Shown here: positions 984 to 23,099 of the stretch, piece by piece | Position numbering within the stretch: the stretch's first letter is position 1 | How the letters are laid out: each line of letters opens with the position of its first letter | Source: a virus | IMG/VR virus record: IMGVR_UViG_3300005537_000066 | Location: 1-23,176 of that record | Direction: 5' to 3' (one strand) | DNA: 23,176 nucleotides | Notes under the pieces: model-generated | Seen by the model: the letters and a program-made list of their open reading frames with translations, nothing else | Told to the model about the DNA's origin: nothing | The model's database searches: none | Made by a program: the position numbers and the translations under genes

Positions 984-1937
984 TCAGACTCCCAGGGGTT
1001 CGCGGTCGGTGAGCGACTGCGTGTTGTCGCAAAGCAGATCGCTCGTCTCGCACACGTGCGGCTCGAGCTCCGCCGCCGCCGATCGCACGAGCTGCGCCTG
1101 CGTGCGCGCGATGTCGGTATTCACGCTCGGCGCCAGCACTGGATCGCGCTGCACGAAGAAGTAGTAGATCGAGCGCGCATCGAGATCGTTCGAGACGCGC
1201 AGGCTCCACGTGAGAAGCGTCGGCGACGGCCCGAAGGACGGGGTCCGCACGATGGACAAGAACCACGGGCCGGCGGCGGGAGCCCCGAGGAACGCCGTCG
1301 CCGTGCCGAGCGTGCGAGTCCCCCAGAAGCCGATGTTGTTGTTGGGGACGATCCAGCTTCGCCCTGCGTGGTGAAGCGTGATCGTCAAACGCGATGCGAG
1401 GCACGCGGAGATCTGGATGGTCACGACGACGCCGTCTGCATCGACGAGATCCGGCCAGGGGACATAACAGGATCGCGTGAGGCCCGGCGCGCCTGAGGGG
1501 ATTGGGATCGCGAGAGGCGGCGTCTCTGTCGCGGTGAGCGCGGCCTCGATGGTGGCGCGCGTTGCTTCGGTGAGCAGCACGCCCGACGGATCGCAATCGA
1601 GAAGGCCAGCGAGCAATCGCTGAATGCGCGCCGTAGTGTAGCCCTTCGAGCGGAGGAGGCGCGCGAGAATGCGCGCCCGGCGCAATGCGGCGTCGTCACC
1701 ATTGCGGACCGGGAGGCCCGCGACGCCCTCCCACAGATCGAGCATCGTCGTCGTTCGATCGGGCAGGAAGTCGCGGATGAGCAGCTCGAGCGAATCACAT
1801 GCGCGCCCGAGGGCCGAGGCGATCGCGCCGAGCTCCTTGACGACGTCGCTATTCGGATCCTGCGAATAGAAGATCGGCGGCTCTAGGCGCAGCAATGCCG
1901 CGAGCACTCGATCGTAAGAGAGAGGACCGGCGGGCAA
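984..1937 (-). CDS. gp48-like baseplate wedge/fibre-linker protein (DUF2313) with P-domain-like C-terminus
   Basis: 317 aa. Residues 10-130 match the Mu gp48/YmfQ (DUF2313) pattern, notably FLPDRTTTMLDLWEGVAGLP at 58-77, where the family has a conserved WE..GLP segment. The family links the baseplate wedge to the tail fibres. Residues 155-250 are extra. They read like a proprotein-convertase P-domain jelly roll: VVVTIQI, then LTITLHHAG, then TAFLGAPAAGPWFLSIV, then LLTWSLRVSND. The start is TTG, two bases past the gp47 stop, with AAGGCGAG upstream. An in-frame GTG a few codons later is a weaker alternative. The tail after 260 is helical and polar. Confidence 0.8.
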   Translation of the reverse strand: MPAGPLSYDRVLAALLRLEPPIFYSQDPNSDVVKELGAIASALGRACDSLELLIRDFLPDRTTTMLDLWEGVAGLPVRNGDDAALRRARILARLLRSKGYTTARIQRLLAGLLDCDPSGVLLTEATRATIEAALTATETPPLAIPIPSGAPGLTRSCYVPWPDLVDADGVVVTIQISACLASRLTITLHHAGRSWIVPNNNIGFWGTRTLGTATAFLGAPAAGPWFLSIVRTPSFGPSPTLLTWSLRVSNDLDARSIYYFFVQRDPVLAPSVNTDIARTQAQLVRSAAAELEPHVCETSDLLCDNTQSLTDREPLGV

Positions 1938-1938
1938 A

Positions 1939-3315
1939 CTAGCTCGCCTTCTTGGTGACCAGGACCGAGCCCGGGACGATCAAGGGCACGGTGGTGGTCT
2001 GCGTGGGCAAAGGATCCGATGGCGAGACGTTCGCGCCGGGCGTGGTGAGATCGGCGTCGACGACGCCGGCGACGTCGGTCGCCGAAGCGAGGAGCTTCGC
2101 GATGCGCAGGCTGTCATCCCAGAAGATCGCCGCACGCGTGTTGCGCGCAGGCCCGAGCGAGTCGTAGCGCGCGAGAAGCGCGGTGCGCACCGGCACGACC
2201 AGGTCGCCGCTCGCGCGAATGAACGAAGTGCCCACCGTCGGATCGACGGATGGCCACGCGTCGATCGTGAGGATGTTGTGCACGACGTCGATGACGGTGA
2301 TCTTCGCCTCCTCGCCCGTCGACGAGATCGTGAGGCGATCGCCGACCGCGAGGCCCGCGGGGAGGCCGCCGCCGAGCGTGATCGTTTTCGTGCCCGCGTT
2401 GAACGCCGTGATGATGAATGCGGATGAGCCGCCGTCGTCCCAATCCCAGACGAATCCGGCCTTGTCGTCGATCGCGATCTCGCATGCGACGTCGACCGAC
2501 TGGGGCGTAACAACCAGCACTGCGATGTCCTTCACGCCGGCCGGGCGGCGAGCTGCAATATAGTTCACCACGGCGGTGAGGTCGGCGAGGATGCGTGCGG
2601 CGCCCGAGCCCGCGCCGAGCACGGCAACATCGATCGTGCCGAGACCTCGCCGATGCGCCCAGACATAGGCCGTCGCGACGCCGGGGACTGCGAGCGCCCA
2701 GTCGAGATAGTCCTTCGCCGCGCCGCCCTCGGGTGAGTCGGCGATCTCTTGCGAGTAGCGCGGCACGTAGGCGTCATCGATCTCGGTGTCGTCGCCATCG
2801 ACCAGATCGGCGACGAGAGTCGCAACGGGATCGACGCCGACAGGTGGCGCGGTGAATGTCAGCACGTCGCCGATGCGCTTGTTCGTGGCGGAGCCGGTAG
2901 AGATCGCGACCACGTCGACGGTCACGTTGCCGCCGCCGTTGAGCACGGCGCCAACGCTTGCGACCTGGTAGAGCGTGCCGTCCGCGTGGGCGAGCTCGCT
3001 GCCGTTCGGCACCGGCGATCCGGCGACGCCGGTGACGGCAAGCGCCTGCGTCCCGTGCGACGGCGTCGCGCCCTTGCGCGGGACGCCAAAGATATTGCCC
3101 CAGCGATCGGCGAAGTCGGCGCGCGCGGTGTCGGGGAACAAGTTCTTCTCGGCGAAGAGGAGCTTCGCGATCACCGACCACACCGCGCCCGAGACGACGC
3201 GGCCGAGGCGGAAAGGATCGGAGCCCTTCGACGTGTTCTTCTCGGGGAACGCCGACTGGATGGCGTTCATGAACTCGGCGAAGAGGTCTTCGCGGCTTGG
3301 GACATCGAACGGCAT
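1939..3315 (-). CDS. gp47-like baseplate wedge protein (baseplate J family)
   Basis: 458 aa. The N-terminal part (MPFDVPSREDLFAEFMNAIQ, then FADRWGNIFGVPRKGATPSHGTQALAVTG) is typical of Mu gp47/P2 J proteins, followed by the ADSPEGGAAKDYLDWALAVP segment characteristic of the family. It forms the wedge around the hub, homologous in role to T4 gp6. A Gly-rich beta segment of roughly 85 residues (about 290-375, FIITAFNAGTKTITLGGG through TSFIRASGD) interrupts the C-terminal part and looks like an inserted small beta domain. The ATG overlaps the gp46 stop as TGATG, so translation is probably coupled. Confidence 0.9.
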   Translation of the reverse strand: MPFDVPSREDLFAEFMNAIQSAFPEKNTSKGSDPFRLGRVVSGAVWSVIAKLLFAEKNLFPDTARADFADRWGNIFGVPRKGATPSHGTQALAVTGVAGSPVPNGSELAHADGTLYQVASVGAVLNGGGNVTVDVVAISTGSATNKRIGDVLTFTAPPVGVDPVATLVADLVDGDDTEIDDAYVPRYSQEIADSPEGGAAKDYLDWALAVPGVATAYVWAHRRGLGTIDVAVLGAGSGAARILADLTAVVNYIAARRPAGVKDIAVLVVTPQSVDVACEIAIDDKAGFVWDWDDGGSSAFIITAFNAGTKTITLGGGLPAGLAVGDRLTISSTGEEAKITVIDVVHNILTIDAWPSVDPTVGTSFIRASGDLVVPVRTALLARYDSLGPARNTRAAIFWDDSLRIAKLLASATDVAGVVDADLTTPGANVSPSDPLPTQTTTVPLIVPGSVLVTKKAS

Positions 3316-8906: not shown

Positions 8907-9166
8907 CGTCCGCCTCGGGCGGAGCGCTTCTTCGCCCTCGCCCGCTCGGCGAGCTTCTTGAGCGCGAGGCGGGAGACGGAGCGCTTCGGCGGGGACTTTC
9001 CCCGCCGGCGCGCGTCCTCGTCGGCGCGCATCTCGTTGCCGCTTGCGATCATTCCGCAAAACCACCAGAGCTGTCCGTCGTCGAGGTCGCAAGCCGCGAC
9101 ACCAAAGTACGCACGAGCTCGCTCAGCAAAGTCGAAGGCAACACGTCGAGCCGAACCGAGTGGATG
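8903..9166 (-). CDS. -1 frameshift extension of the tail assembly chaperone
   Basis: This 87-residue open frame has no upstream start of its own but reads like real protein: VAFDFAERARAYFGVAACDL, then DDGQLWWFCGMIASGNEM, then a Lys/Arg-rich end. It would be appended after residue 145 of the chaperone by a -1 shift at the A AAA AAC heptamer, with base 9166 read twice, giving a 232-aa product. This mirrors the G/GT-type arrangement of lambda and the gp41 region of Mu. As an alternative, an ATG at 9052 overlapping the zero-frame stop could start a 49-aa stand-alone protein. The coding-like sequence upstream of that ATG favours the frameshift. Confidence 0.8.
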   Translation of the reverse strand, partial: HPLGSARRVAFDFAERARAYFGVAACDLDDGQLWWFCGMIASGNEMRADEDARRRGKSPPKRSVSRLALKKLAERARAKKRSARGGR

Positions 9167-9600
9167 TTTTTTTTTAGATTCTCGACGAGCGCATCGGTCT
9201 CCTCGCGCGAGTTTGGGCGCGCGGCGACCGAGCCTTGCAGCGACGTCCACTCGTTGTACAGCTCGGCGATCACCTCCGACGGCTGCGCCGCGAGCTCGTC
9301 GGTGTCGCGCGAGATCGCCTCGCCCGATTCGGGATCGCGCGCGGCGAGGAAGAGGAGCGCGGCGCGCTCCCGCATGAGGAACGTGATCGCCGTCGGATCC
9401 GAAGGCGGCGCCGGACGCCGCGCCGCCTTCGCTTCGGCGGCGAGCTTCTTGAAGTACTCCGCCGTCTCGAGATGCGCGCGCTCGAGATCGGTCTGGCCGA
9501 GGACGCGGAGGCGCACCTCGACGCCGGGGGCGCCGGGGAACGGGACGAGCTTCGCGCGCGGCGCGCTCGGCTCGATCTTCTCGAGGAACGATTTCGACAA
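9049..9600 (-). CDS. tail assembly chaperone (gp41-like), zero-frame product
   Basis: 183 aa, located between tube and tape measure, the canonical chaperone position. The sequence starts like a virion-binding beta segment (AKLVPFPGAPGVEVRLRVLG) and continues as helices (LERAHLETAEYFKKLAAEAK; EVIAELYNEWTSLQ), consistent with the fold of tail chaperones that coat the tape measure during assembly. The start is TTG, supported by AGGAG six bases upstream. The A9 run at residues 142-145 carries a -1 slippery heptamer that produces the longer form. Confidence 0.82.
   Translation of the reverse strand: MSKSFLEKIEPSAPRAKLVPFPGAPGVEVRLRVLGQTDLERAHLETAEYFKKLAAEAKAARRPAPPSDPTAITFLMRERAALLFLAARDPESGEAISRDTDELAAQPSEVIAELYNEWTSLQGSVAARPNSREETDALVENLKKNIHSVRLDVLPSTLLSELVRTLVSRLATSTTDSSGGFAE
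9166..9172 (-). promoter_or_regulatory. programmed -1 ribosomal frameshift site A AAA AAC
   Basis: Inside an A9 run (9167-9175, coding strand). The zero-frame codons are CTA AAA AAA AAC, so the heptamer is in phase for a simultaneous -1 slip. It lies upstream of a protein-like -1 frame that ends in overlap with the next gene. Conserved -1 frameshifts at this gene position are well established for tailed phages. Confidence 0.85.
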
Positions 9601-17539: not shown

Positions 17540-17827
17540 GTGGCCCTGTACCCGTGCCAGTGTGGCGAGCCGGTGGACGTGGACACCGAGCACCTCGGGC
17601 CGTGGGCGGCGCAGCTGCTCCTGCCCCCGGTTCGGGTGATCTGCGCCGCCTGCCGCGACCAGCTCGGCCTCGCCGAAGCCTTCGACCCCGAGCTCGGCCG
17701 ACCGTTCCTGCTCCGCGACGGCCGCGAATACGTCCTTCTCGGCGGCGCGTTCGTGCGCAGCGACAGCCCCCGGATGGCCGGGAAGTACCCCCGCGACGAG
17801 CAGCGCGGCGACGAAGCGCAGCACTAG
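17540..17827 (+). CDS. putative small zinc-ribbon protein, plus-strand cassette gene 2
   Basis: 95 aa from a GTG nine bases after the previous stop. Cys pairs CQC (6, 8) and CAAC (35, 38) could form one zinc site, followed by a short beta-like segment (LGRPFLLRDGREYVLLGGAF). Only a weak ribosome binding site (TAGG) is seen, so translation may depend on the upstream gene. Its TAG overlaps the TAG of the convergent MuF gene in the sequence CTAG. No family recognised. Confidence 0.6.
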   Translation: MALYPCQCGEPVDVDTEHLGPWAAQLLLPPVRVICAACRDQLGLAEAFDPELGRPFLLRDGREYVLLGGAFVRSDSPRMAGKYPRDEQRGDEAQH

Positions 17828-19380
17828 AGCACCCCCCACAGCGAAGCGTTGACGGCGATCGCCTCCGCCCGGTCGAAGCCGGGGAGCGGCCCCCGCGAGA
17901 GCGTCACGATCTCGCGGCCGCCGTCGGTGGCGCGCACGTTCCGAAAGGCGCGCTTCCATTTCGCGCCGTCGGGAAGATGCGCACCGGCGCCGCCGCGCAC
18001 GCGGACGTCTTGGATGTCCCACGCCCGACGGACGGGCGACTTGCCCTCGCCGCGCTCGCCGTTCGCCTCGAGGAAGGCGAGCGCGTGCTCGAGCTCGCCG
18101 GGGTGCACCCGAAGACGCAAGGCATACTCGGTCGAGCTCGCCACCGTCGCCCCGGCGGCGAGGCCCATCCGGTGCGCTAGCGCGTCGTCGTAGACGACCT
18201 CGGGATCGGGCCAGTGCGCTCCATCCCAGCCCGAGAAGAACGTCGCTCGCGCGGAGACGGCGATGCGATCTTTCAGCCGATAGAGCCCTTTCTCCTGCAC
18301 GAGCCGCGTGACGAGCTGCTCGGCGGTGTCGAGGTTCTGCGAGTACATGTGCCAGTCGACCTCGAGCTCGCCATGCGCGAGCGGCGGCCGAGCGAGCTCG
18401 ACGTTGAACACCGGCGTCCGCTCGAGCTGGCGCTCGACGTCGTGGGGCGAGAGCCCTGCGAAGGCTTCGACCCGGCGGCGGCGCGTCGGATCGGCGGCGC
18501 GGTTGAGATCGCCTGCGCCCTGGCTGAGCGCGCCGGTGCGACGCGCCTCGAACCGGATCCCGTCGACCGTCTCGTCGGCCGCGACCTGCGTCGCCGGCGA
18601 GCCCGAAAAGCCGGGATCGGGGATCATGTGCACGTGCTTGCCGTCTTCGGTCTCGATGCGCGCCGGCACGTCGTCGGCAGCGGTGAGCCCGCGGGCCTCG
18701 AGCTCGCCGCGCGAGAGCGACTCGACCCCGCACCGGCAGCGGTGCCCGTTCGGGGGGAACCAGGTCTGCCAGACGGGCGAGTCCGACGGGAAGACGCGGC
18801 CGTTCATCGCCTGGTGCGTCGGGCGCACGCGGTTGTCGCCGGCGGTGCGGTACTGCCAGAACGGCCGCGCGCGCGCCACGTCGGGATGCGTGAGCTGCGC
18901 GTAGCGGCCGCCGGCGTAGGCGCCGAGCACGGCGTTGTCGAACGTCGTTTGAAGCTGGAACGACGTCGGCGAGTCGACGCCGGCGCTCGCGAAGGAGGCG
19001 CGGATGCGGGCGAGCGTGTCCTTCTCGGCGGCCCCGTCGGCGATCGCGTCGAACAGCGCGCCGTGCGCCTCCTCGAGCACCTGGCGCGCGTGCACACCGG
19101 CGATGCCGAAGCCCTTCGACTTGTAGCGGTCCTCGAGGGCGTCGAGCTCGGGCGGCGTCATCGCCGTCTTCCGGCGAAAGAACGCCTTCGCCTCCTCGAA
19201 CGGGAGCCCCGCGAACGAGGGCGTCCCCATCGCCGAGAGCCGAATCGAATCGGGCGCGTGCGAAGCCGCCTCGAGGCGCGCGAGCATGTCGGCGCGCAGC
19301 ATCGACTCCGCCGCCGCGCGCCCGAGCTCGGGCACCGCGCTCGACGTGAGCAGCGCGAACACGACCATCTTCGCGTTCAT
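17824..19380 (-). CDS. Mu F-like head morphogenesis protein (MuF) with long C-terminal extension
   Basis: 518 aa from an ATG preceded by GGGAGG at five bases spacing. Residues 55-230 are the MuF domain (PF04233): FEEAKAFFRRKTAMTPPELD, then QLQTTFDNAVLGAYAGGRYA, then WQYRTAGDNRVRPTHQAMNG and TWFPPNGHRCRC with the family's GHRCRC motif. It is a minor capsid protein near the portal. Residues about 270-518 form an extra region of unknown fold. The same frame stays open for 117 bases upstream of the ATG to the A10 run at the portal end, so a portal-MuF fusion by -1 frameshift is possible (557 residues appended). Confidence 0.88.
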   Translation of the reverse strand: MNAKMVVFALLTSSAVPELGRAAAESMLRADMLARLEAASHAPDSIRLSAMGTPSFAGLPFEEAKAFFRRKTAMTPPELDALEDRYKSKGFGIAGVHARQVLEEAHGALFDAIADGAAEKDTLARIRASFASAGVDSPTSFQLQTTFDNAVLGAYAGGRYAQLTHPDVARARPFWQYRTAGDNRVRPTHQAMNGRVFPSDSPVWQTWFPPNGHRCRCGVESLSRGELEARGLTAADDVPARIETEDGKHVHMIPDPGFSGSPATQVAADETVDGIRFEARRTGALSQGAGDLNRAADPTRRRRVEAFAGLSPHDVERQLERTPVFNVELARPPLAHGELEVDWHMYSQNLDTAEQLVTRLVQEKGLYRLKDRIAVSARATFFSGWDGAHWPDPEVVYDDALAHRMGLAAGATVASSTEYALRLRVHPGELEHALAFLEANGERGEGKSPVRRAWDIQDVRVRGGAGAHLPDGAKWKRAFRNVRATDGGREIVTLSRGPLPGFDRAEAIAVNASLWGVL

Positions 19381-19472
19381 CGGACCCTCCCGCTTGACCA
19401 GCTCGAGCACTTCATCGTTCAGCCTTTCGACGGCCGCTCGCGCGCGCTCGGGCGCTCGGGCGGCGATCTCCT

Positions 19473-21032
19473 CTACGTCCCCCAGCTCATCGCCCGCTTT
19501 TTTTTTTGCGCGTCGGCGAGGAGGATGTGCGAGCTGCAGTTCGGGCAGACGCCCGAGCCGCGCATCTCCTCGCCCTCGTTCCCCGTCGGTGGAATTGGCG
19601 GGGCGCCCGGCGCCGGCGGCGCGGGCGGTTCGGTGACGCCGAGCGTCTCCTCGCCCGCTTCCGGCTCGACGAGCGAGAACTCGTCGCGCACCTGGCGCAC
19701 CGCGATCGGCATCTTCATCGAGGCGAGCACCTTGAGCGTCTCGGCGCGCGTCTTCCGCGTCTCGGCCTCGGCCTTCTCGTCGGTCGGCGGCTCGACGAGG
19801 TGGCGAAGGCGCGGCTTTGGCGCCTGCGGCCCGTAGTGCCAGACCGTCCACGGGCCGATGAGGTCGGTCGTGAGCATCTGGTCAATGCGAGCGGCGCGGA
19901 GCTGGACGAGCTGCTGCTCGGCGCGCTCCTGCACCTCGGCCGCGCCGCCGACGCCGAGCGCGCCGCCGGTGCGGGTGAGCTCAGTGGTCGCGGTGACGCC
20001 GTTTATGGCCTTCGAGATCGCTGCGTCGAGGTACTCGATGAACGCGAGGTAGACGTCGCGCACCGTCGCGGCCTTCGTGATCGATTCGAGGATCGTCACC
20101 TTCACGCCGGCGGGAACGAGCCCGATCTGGTCGGCGATGAGCGCACGCGCGGCGCCCTTGGCGCGCTCGAGCTCGGGCGAGCCCTCCTTCACGTTCGGCG
20201 GGAGCTCGACCTGCACATGCGGGTGGCCGAACCGCTCGATGAAGCTCATCCCGTCGATGAGGTTGTAGCTCTTGTAGAGCCACGGCTTCGCGATCACGCG
20301 GCCCGCGCCGCCGCGACAGATCAGGCCCGCGCGATCGCGCACCGCGTGGAAGAGGAGCCCCTCGGGCATGAGCTCGCCCGCGGGGTTCTCGAGCGTCTCG
20401 ATGAGCGGCGTGTTCCCCTCGACGAAGCGGAAGAAGCGCGCCTCGATCGCCTCCCACTGCTCGATCCACCAGGCGCCGGCGTCCTCGTACCAGACCGGCT
20501 GCACCGCCGCGAAGCCGCGATATTCGGCGTCGAGGAGGTCGGCGACCATCTGCGCCGAGTCGGGGATGCGCTTCCAGAACAGCTCGGCCGCCTCGGCGAT
20601 CTCCGCCGCCTTGTCGCTCTCGTCCCCCGGCTCGAGCTCGACCGGCGCGCCGGCGACCGACATCTTCATTTTCAGAAGCTGCGACTGCACGTGGGCGTCG
20701 CAGGCGACGTCGTCGAGCACTTCCTGCCAGAGGAACGTCGTGCCAAAATCGGCGAGCCGTTGGATCTCCTGCAGGCGGCGCGGATCGAGCCCGTCGGTCG
20801 GATAGAAGCGCGCGATCTTCCGCGACGGCGCGATGGTGATGATCGTCTGCGGCGGCCGGCCCTCGCTCGCGTTCGGGATCTTCGCCTCGGGGCTCTCGTC
20901 GCCCGTGAGCTCGCGCATCCTCGCGAGGAGCGCTTCGCCCATCTCGTTGCGACGCGGGATCTCCAAGGCACGCCCGTGCGCCTGCGACGCCCAGAAGGCA
21001 GCCATGGCCGGGCCGATGCCGAGGCGGCTCAC
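19473..21032 (-). CDS. portal protein (DUF935, Mu gp29-like)
   Basis: 519 aa in the zero frame. It matches Mu gp29 portals: PTDGLDPRRLQEIQRLADFG, DAHVQSQLLKMKMSVAG, DLLDAEYRGFAAVQPVWYE, KPWLYKSYNLIDGMSFIERF and AAISKAINGVTATTELT. The portal forms the dodecameric DNA gate at the capsid vertex. The C-terminus is Pro-rich with a lone CPNC pair and ends soon after KKK. The GTG start overlaps the terminase stop. The A10 run at 19498-19507 encodes the Lys stretch and contains an in-phase A AAA AAG heptamer; slippage by -1 there leads into the MuF frame. Confidence 0.92.
   Translation of the reverse strand: MSRLGIGPAMAAFWASQAHGRALEIPRRNEMGEALLARMRELTGDESPEAKIPNASEGRPPQTIITIAPSRKIARFYPTDGLDPRRLQEIQRLADFGTTFLWQEVLDDVACDAHVQSQLLKMKMSVAGAPVELEPGDESDKAAEIAEAAELFWKRIPDSAQMVADLLDAEYRGFAAVQPVWYEDAGAWWIEQWEAIEARFFRFVEGNTPLIETLENPAGELMPEGLLFHAVRDRAGLICRGGAGRVIAKPWLYKSYNLIDGMSFIERFGHPHVQVELPPNVKEGSPELERAKGAARALIADQIGLVPAGVKVTILESITKAATVRDVYLAFIEYLDAAISKAINGVTATTELTRTGGALGVGGAAEVQERAEQQLVQLRAARIDQMLTTDLIGPWTVWHYGPQAPKPRLRHLVEPPTDEKAEAETRKTRAETLKVLASMKMPIAVRQVRDEFSLVEPEAGEETLGVTEPPAPPAPGAPPIPPTGNEGEEMRGSGVCPNCSSHILLADAQKKKRAMSWGT
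19497..19503 (-). promoter_or_regulatory. candidate -1 frameshift / slippage site A AAA AAG in an A10 run
   Basis: Zero-frame codons are CAA AAA AAA AAG CGG, seven codons before the portal stop. A -1 shift enters the MuF frame, which is open from here to 17824. Three bases downstream, GGCGAU can pair with AUCGCC across a 21-base loop, a plausible but modest stimulatory hairpin. An A10 run could equally cause transcriptional slippage (one extra A). A sequencing indel in the homopolymer is the main alternative. Confidence 0.55.
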
Positions 21033-22492: not shown

Positions 22493-22710
22493 CGCAAGAT
22501 CTCCTCGCCGCCGCCGTCGTCCAGCTCGGCCTGCAGCGCGGCCGCCTCGATCGATTCGTACAGCTCGACGAAGGCGACGATCTCTTTTCGCGCGATGCGC
22601 CACGCACGCTCGACGAGGAAGTTCATCGGGCGGTCGATGCGTCGCGCGAGCTCTGCGAGCTCCTGCCCGAGCTCGCGCGAGACCGAGATGTGGCACTCGG
22701 GCTTCTTCAC
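22489..22710 (-). CDS. ribbon-helix-helix-like small DNA-binding protein
   Basis: 73 aa from a GTG overlapping the SET gene stop (GTGA). A short N-terminal strand (PECHISVSREL) followed by two helices (GQELAELARRIDRPMNFLVE; ARKEIVAFVELYESIEAA) is the layout of Arc/MetJ-type dimers that insert a beta ribbon into the DNA major groove. The C-terminus is acidic and Gly-rich. It lies directly before the large terminase, where a small terminase would be expected, and no other small terminase is visible. It may recognise the packaging site or repress transcription; both are inference. Confidence 0.65.
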   Translation of the reverse strand: MKKPECHISVSRELGQELAELARRIDRPMNFLVERAWRIARKEIVAFVELYESIEAAALQAELDDGGGEEILR

Positions 22711-23099
22711 CGCCAGCCCTCTCCGTACCCGGCGAAGTCGGGATCGAACTGGCGATAGTCCTCGGTGATCTCCTCCCCGATGGCGATGGAGCGCGCAGCG
22801 GTCGAGACGAATTGGTTTCCGGCCTCGACGGTGACGATGGTGTTGGGCGCGAAGCTGTGATTCAGGAAACGGCTGTTGTCGACGCTGACGAGCCAGCGGC
22901 CATCGGTGCCGCGCCAGCCGTAGCGCCACACGAACTCCTGCGCATGCGACGGCAGCGCGCGAAGCTCCTCGTCGGTGCACGACCAGCCGAAGCGCCCATC
23001 CCAGCGCGCAATGACCTCGCCGGCCGCGATCGACTGCCGCGCGAACAGGCCAAGGCCCTCGATCGGCGACGGCGCGACGGCGGTGCGCACGAGCAGCAT
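22707..23099 (-). CDS. stand-alone SET-domain protein (putative lysine methyltransferase)
   Basis: 130 aa, essentially a minimal SET domain. Visible motifs are EGLGLFARQSIAAGEVI with GLG at 15-17 (SAM loop), NHSFAPN at 80-86 and GEEITEDY at 108-115 with the catalytic-type Tyr115. Pre-SET and Cys-rich post-SET regions are absent. Known SET enzymes transfer methyl from S-adenosylmethionine to protein lysines. The ATG overlaps the upstream stop (TGATG) and its own stop overlaps the next GTG, so it is built into the packaging operon. The substrate is unknown. Confidence 0.85.
   Translation of the reverse strand: MLLVRTAVAPSPIEGLGLFARQSIAAGEVIARWDGRFGWSCTDEELRALPSHAQEFVWRYGWRGTDGRWLVSVDNSRFLNHSFAPNTIVTVEAGNQFVSTAARSIAIGEEITEDYRQFDPDFAGYGEGWR

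Follow-up and report, generated by a model that had tools for sequence, protein, structure and literature searches.

The Mu-type portal gene on the minus strand of the window, i.e. the whole stretch of 23,176 nucleotides of viral DNA analysed here, very probably contains a conserved recoding site near its end, where a selected run of 9-10 adenines would direct a minority of readings into the -1 frame and thus give rise to a covalent portal-MuF protein. Most readings would remain in frame and terminate within about 8 codons, yielding a short portal without its C-terminal domain, while the fraction that slips would read this domain first and MuF thereafter. The original prediction had at its core a programmed -1 shift that joins portal and MuF, and this shift is supported by conservation of the site, by coding constraint downstream of it and by the match of the -1-frame segment to portal C-termini.

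Gene layout and the adenine run

In addition to portal and MuF, the minus strand of the window (69% GC) encodes the large terminase subunit, a Mu-type protease (PF10123) and the major head protein as well as a tail module, which includes the tube and tape measure genes. The portal gene (19473..21032, minus strand) specifies a 0-frame product of 519 aa, the short portal, which matches PF06074 Portal_Mu (E=3.7e-60, 204.5 bits with a cut-off of 23.9) and phrog_113 (E=8.7e-61), and its stop codon TAG is read directly from the sequence at 19473-19475. The adjoining MuF reading frame (17824..19380, minus strand), which comprises 518 aa from an internal ATG at 19380, is assigned by PF04233 Phage_Mu_F (E=3.4e-16, 60.4 bits with a cut-off of 29.6), by phrog_220 (E=1.1e-50) and by alignment. 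According to Pfam, the Phage_Mu_F domain spans 18724..19059 on the same strand, corresponding to residues 150-261 of the -1-frame protein read from 19506. The predicted structure of this -1-frame protein reaches a mean pLDDT of 60; its viral matches are MuF/head morphogenesis proteins, and its matches in the PDB are not significant.

Two further proteins deserve mention in their own right. The C-terminal 260 aa of MuF (17824-18610, minus strand) are well conserved in the clade described below and feature the motifs VDW-MYSQ and ARATYF; no Pfam family exceeds its curated cut-off in this part, and the structure model suggests an alpha/beta fold with moderate to low confidence. Upstream of the terminase gene, a SET-domain protein of 130 aa is encoded (22707-23099, minus strand; PF00856, E=3e-13), whose fold is of the lysine-methyltransferase type.

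The -1 shift, or the insertion of one extra A into the mRNA, is proposed to take place at an A10 run at 19498..19507 (minus strand). In the portal frame the run reads CAA AAA AAA AAG, so that A AAA AAG is in phase as predicted, and the TAG follows 8 codons after the run. Starting at the run, the -1 frame indeed stays open across MuF as far as 17824, and translation after addition of one A to the run gives a product of 1069 aa (17824..21032, minus strand), which consists of the portal, the portal C-terminal domain and MuF. That the -1 frame is open is, taken alone, weak evidence in GC-rich DNA. The run itself is not a chance event: 17 of the 215 lysine codons of the window are AAA, which puts the chance of Q-K-K being written CAA AAA AAA at p about 7e-4. 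Since AAA is likewise rare for lysine in the three relatives, and hence in all four members, the run has been retained in the face of codon bias. Moreover, A/T runs of at least 6 occur only twice in the 23 kb window, at the portal run and at a tail-chaperone slip site.

Conservation of the run and its frame relation

The same arrangement is present on three further IMG/VR contigs, G001, G002 and G003, with the loci L009, L010 and L011, respectively. These relatives were recovered from viral contigs by MuF, terminase and portal-clade queries; the portal query alone gave no match among viral contigs. All four members, the only ones known, are metagenomic assemblies of uncultivated Mu-type tailed phages, and neither cellular hosts nor prophages were found in cellular genome contigs. 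A pattern scan for an A-run with a nearby TAG returned 13 stretches, two of which were the known relatives. Identity to the window amounts to 59%, 54% and 51% for MuF and to 46%, 39% and 48% for the portal of L009, L010 and L011, respectively. In the portal tree the four members are united with 100/100 support; distances within the group are long, the paths from the window to the other members measuring 1.1-1.6 changes per site. Despite portal identities of 39-48%, both the run and the -1 frame are kept in all three relatives, in agreement with what was foreseen for a programmed site: the runs are A10, A10 and A9 in the same phase, the 0-frame stop follows within about 7-9 codons, and the -1 path is open into MuF. 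Hence the run length varies between A9 and A10 across the clade, while the frame relation is constant.

Beyond the clade, about 40 other phages in which both genes could be located show no A-run of at least 7 at the portal/MuF junction, and a single frame carries their portals through to the profile end. A locus on the same well-supported branch, L116, encodes a portal (about 1707-3026) that terminates in the linker KPKKKPAKK*; it lacks the A run and the C-terminal domain, and no MuF adjoins it on its contig, a fragment of only 7984 bases. This suggests that a short portal can work alone, although a MuF gene may lie outside the fragment. Uninterrupted portal-MuF reading frames occur at separate places in the portal tree, apart from the clade, namely in L020 (8341-11100, 920 aa), L094 (3564-5696, 711 aa), L095 (3015-6302, 1096 aa) and L096 (3405-5678, 758 aa).

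The existence of such in-frame fusions lends some weight to the alternative that the run was missequenced or misassembled, its true length being another, and that the gene is in fact one continuous portal-MuF reading frame. Homopolymers are error-prone, and a second site in these genomes serves as an internal control. On the sense strand of the window, G001 and G003, A-runs of at least 9 are confined to the portal site and a probable tail-chaperone site of the G/GT type, which in the window is an A9 run at 9167..9175 (minus strand) directly before the tape measure gene. This A9 run fits the G/GT position between the tail tube and tape measure genes; the portal/MuF site lies in the head module and hence outside that position. 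The chaperone reading frame (9049-9600, minus strand) with its -1 extension to 8903 (KKKHPLGSARRVAFDFAERARAYFGV...) follows the lambda G/GT arrangement, although neither part has a PHROG match, and matching A9 sites are present in G001 and G003. In G002, the corresponding run (L099, 15348-15355) is A8 and looks one A short, the conserved product lying in another, odd frame; this is possibly an assembly indel or a true variant, and run lengths in these assemblies are therefore not perfectly certain. Nevertheless, an error at the portal site is quite unlikely, since the same mistake would be needed in three contigs at 39-46% portal identity, with its equivalent at A9 in the fourth, whereas the tail-chaperone A9 runs read in the expected frames in three of these contigs. 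In addition, the 0-frame stop follows soon after the run in all four members, and an error would leave the selected A-run itself unexplained.

The -1-frame segment as portal C-terminal domain

The 92 bases between the portal stop and the MuF ATG at 19380 had been correctly counted in the original prediction, which regarded them as a gap in the gene layout. The stretch after the run is, however, neither gap nor linker: the portal HMM, hhalign and coding constraint identify the -1-frame segment at 19258..19497 (minus strand; AGDELGDVEEIAARAP...MLARLEAASH) as the helical C-terminal domain of the portal. Seven annotated phages in which the genes are separate show portal and MuF overlapping or a few bases apart, and MuF starts there at the equivalent of about 19230 of the window, not at 19380. 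The extra sequence of the window before about 19230 aligns, in the -1 frame, with the C-terminal helical part of the portals of those phages; the portal of Ochrobactrum phage POA1180 also has the preceding CPxC motif (CPHCGGYHALAADERDELDVLADTGLE vs CPNCSSHILLADAQKKKAGDELGDVEEIA). With a portal profile built without the clade, the match of the 0-frame L009 product ends near position 418 of 499, whereas the fusions of L009 and L011 match as far as 495-496. The gain in score contributed by the -1 segment was equalled by 1/300, 0/300, 0/300 and 0/300 segment shuffles for the four members. When the profile of the four -1 segments was compared with a profile of portal C-termini, hhalign gave P=1.1e-4. 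Taken together, these comparisons point to a distant but consistent homology. The helical C-terminal domain, which is usual in related portals and not part of what defines the Pfam family, thus lies only in the -1 frame in all four members. Because the run is situated inside the region of portal homology, a shift would restore the portal's own end before entering MuF.

The stretch from the run to the internal ATG comprises 38-39 codons in all four members and is devoid of stops and frame-breaking indels in the -1 frame; 79% of the 39 codons in the window end in G or C, in line with the bias noted earlier. For a test of coding constraint, the observed substitutions were moved to random sites 5000 times and the -1-frame amino-acid scores compared. 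Equal or better scores arose in 52/5000 cases for window/L009, in 0/5000 for window/L010 and in 42/5000 for L009/L010. Ahead of the run, the -1 frame shows no conservation. Hence the conserved relation of site and frame is accompanied by downstream coding constraint, as is typical of -1 frameshifting. No start codon common to all four members was seen between run and ATG, and in combination with the constraint this makes the stretch look translated, with slippage at the run as the obvious entry.

The internal ATG is itself conserved. As proposed, it is preceded by a site resembling a ribosome-binding site (GGGAGGG, 19385..19391, minus strand), and both the purine-rich site and the aligned methionine are found in all four members. 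It is conceivable on these grounds that MuF starts only at this ATG, that no fusion is made and that the -1 stretch is a decayed portal C-terminal domain. This reading is very unlikely, because the codons between run and ATG show amino-acid constraint and neither stops nor frame-breaking indels in the -1 frame, because the four members share no start codon there, and because decay does not account for a maintained A run. Under the favoured slippage reading, the aligned methionine and the conserved ribosome-binding site make free MuF likely in addition to the fusion.

Possible slip mechanisms and proposed consequences for the portal ring

Slippage at the run may be brought about by the ribosome or by RNA polymerase adding one A, the two being about equally likely. 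The dnaX-type heptamer A AAA AAG named in the original prediction is in phase in the window, L009 and L010, but L011, with its A9 run, has A AAA AAA instead. Both heptamers conform to X XXY YYZ, so that a slippery heptamer is in phase in all four members, and ribosomal -1 frameshifting, as first proposed, is a tentative choice with somewhat less than an even chance. It gains from the A8-A10 runs that the same phages carry at the tail-chaperone site, a type of site that is ribosomal in lambda (PMC5009743). Its weakness is the lack of a stimulator. The hexamers GGCGAT/ATCGCC of the predicted hairpin are present, but they form no pair in the predicted fold, and no hairpin is common to the three relatives. 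The 60 nt 3' of the run in the window fold no better than shuffles (z = +0.96), the z-scores for the four members being +0.96, -0.51, -0.53 and +0.25 with no common structure, and no Shine-Dalgarno-like stretch was seen upstream of the run. In E. coli, unstimulated heptamers raise frameshifting no more than about 10-fold over a background of close to 0.06% (PMC4066793), so that the ribosome by itself might slip weakly.

Because the A9 member lacks an in-phase A AAA AAG, what is conserved is a long A run (A10, A10, A10 and A9), of about the length of 9 or more associated with transcriptional slippage, and slippage of RNA polymerase is an equally good mechanism. mRNAs with an extra A would then be formed as in Citrobacter rodentium tssM1, where an A11 run with a stop 28 nt on supports polymerase slippage of about 20-25% (PMC4256274). 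This variant, likewise just below an even chance and at most a shade ahead, is favoured by a run that exceeds the heptamer in all members, by the absence of an RNA stimulator and by a layout closely matching tssM1. It is countered by the in-phase A AAA AAG of three of the four members, which is also ideal for ribosomal slippage, and by the E. coli enzyme, which shows rather little slippage where an A run is of modest length (PMC6260861).

By either route, the portal ring would probably consist of many short subunits and few long ones, and such a mixed ring would restrict the MuF copies at the portal vertex to a limited number, whereas the internal ATG and its ribosome-binding site within the C-terminal-domain sequence probably also supply free MuF. 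The fusion would be made at a low level and in a set ratio, as originally proposed; at a rate of the order of that of tssM1, a twelve-subunit ring would, by way of illustration and not as a result, contain about three long subunits. There is about an even chance that slippage sets the make-up of the ring in this way, equipping an otherwise uniform ring with a controlled number of covalently bound MuF proteins, and that the portal C-terminal domain is confined to few long portal-MuF subunits in the clade. Free MuF from the internal ATG could also do the work, the fusion being minor.

Portals are treated as uniform rings, and the entry of few MuF copies into the capsid is known mainly as non-covalent binding. 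In SPP1, few copies of the MuF-type gp7 enter the procapsid, through their binding to the gp6 portal (PMC6316719), while a covalent minority fusion is proposed here. In-frame fusion of MuF to the portal is known from Microbacterium phage clusters EA/EB (PMC7302621), and these, like L020, L094, L095 and L096, combine both functions in one polypeptide in the same order; there, however, every portal copy would carry MuF, whereas slippage would give two forms. The lambda G/GT pair shares with the present site a slip site close to where a gene of a phage structural module ends, and a minority extended product, but it is another gene pair, and here the extension comprises the portal's own domain plus a whole head protein, the MuF part being expected in the virion. 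The likeness to tssM1 extends to the long A run, the stop about 28 nt on and the short and long versions (PMC4256274), yet tssM1 belongs to type VI secretion and has A11, as opposed to A9-A10 in a phage portal with a putative polymerase step. A frameshift-made portal-MuF fusion was not found in openly licensed papers, PRFect bringing up MuF-like genes only where VIP2 fusions are concerned (PMC10885494), and we could not find an earlier description of a slippage-made mixed portal ring.

If true, the proposed mechanism would be a further case of recoding put to use in the phage head module and would explain a fixed low copy number of MuF. It would further imply that most subunits can do without the portal C-terminal domain, and gene callers would annotate this domain of the clade as intergenic DNA or as the N-terminus of MuF.
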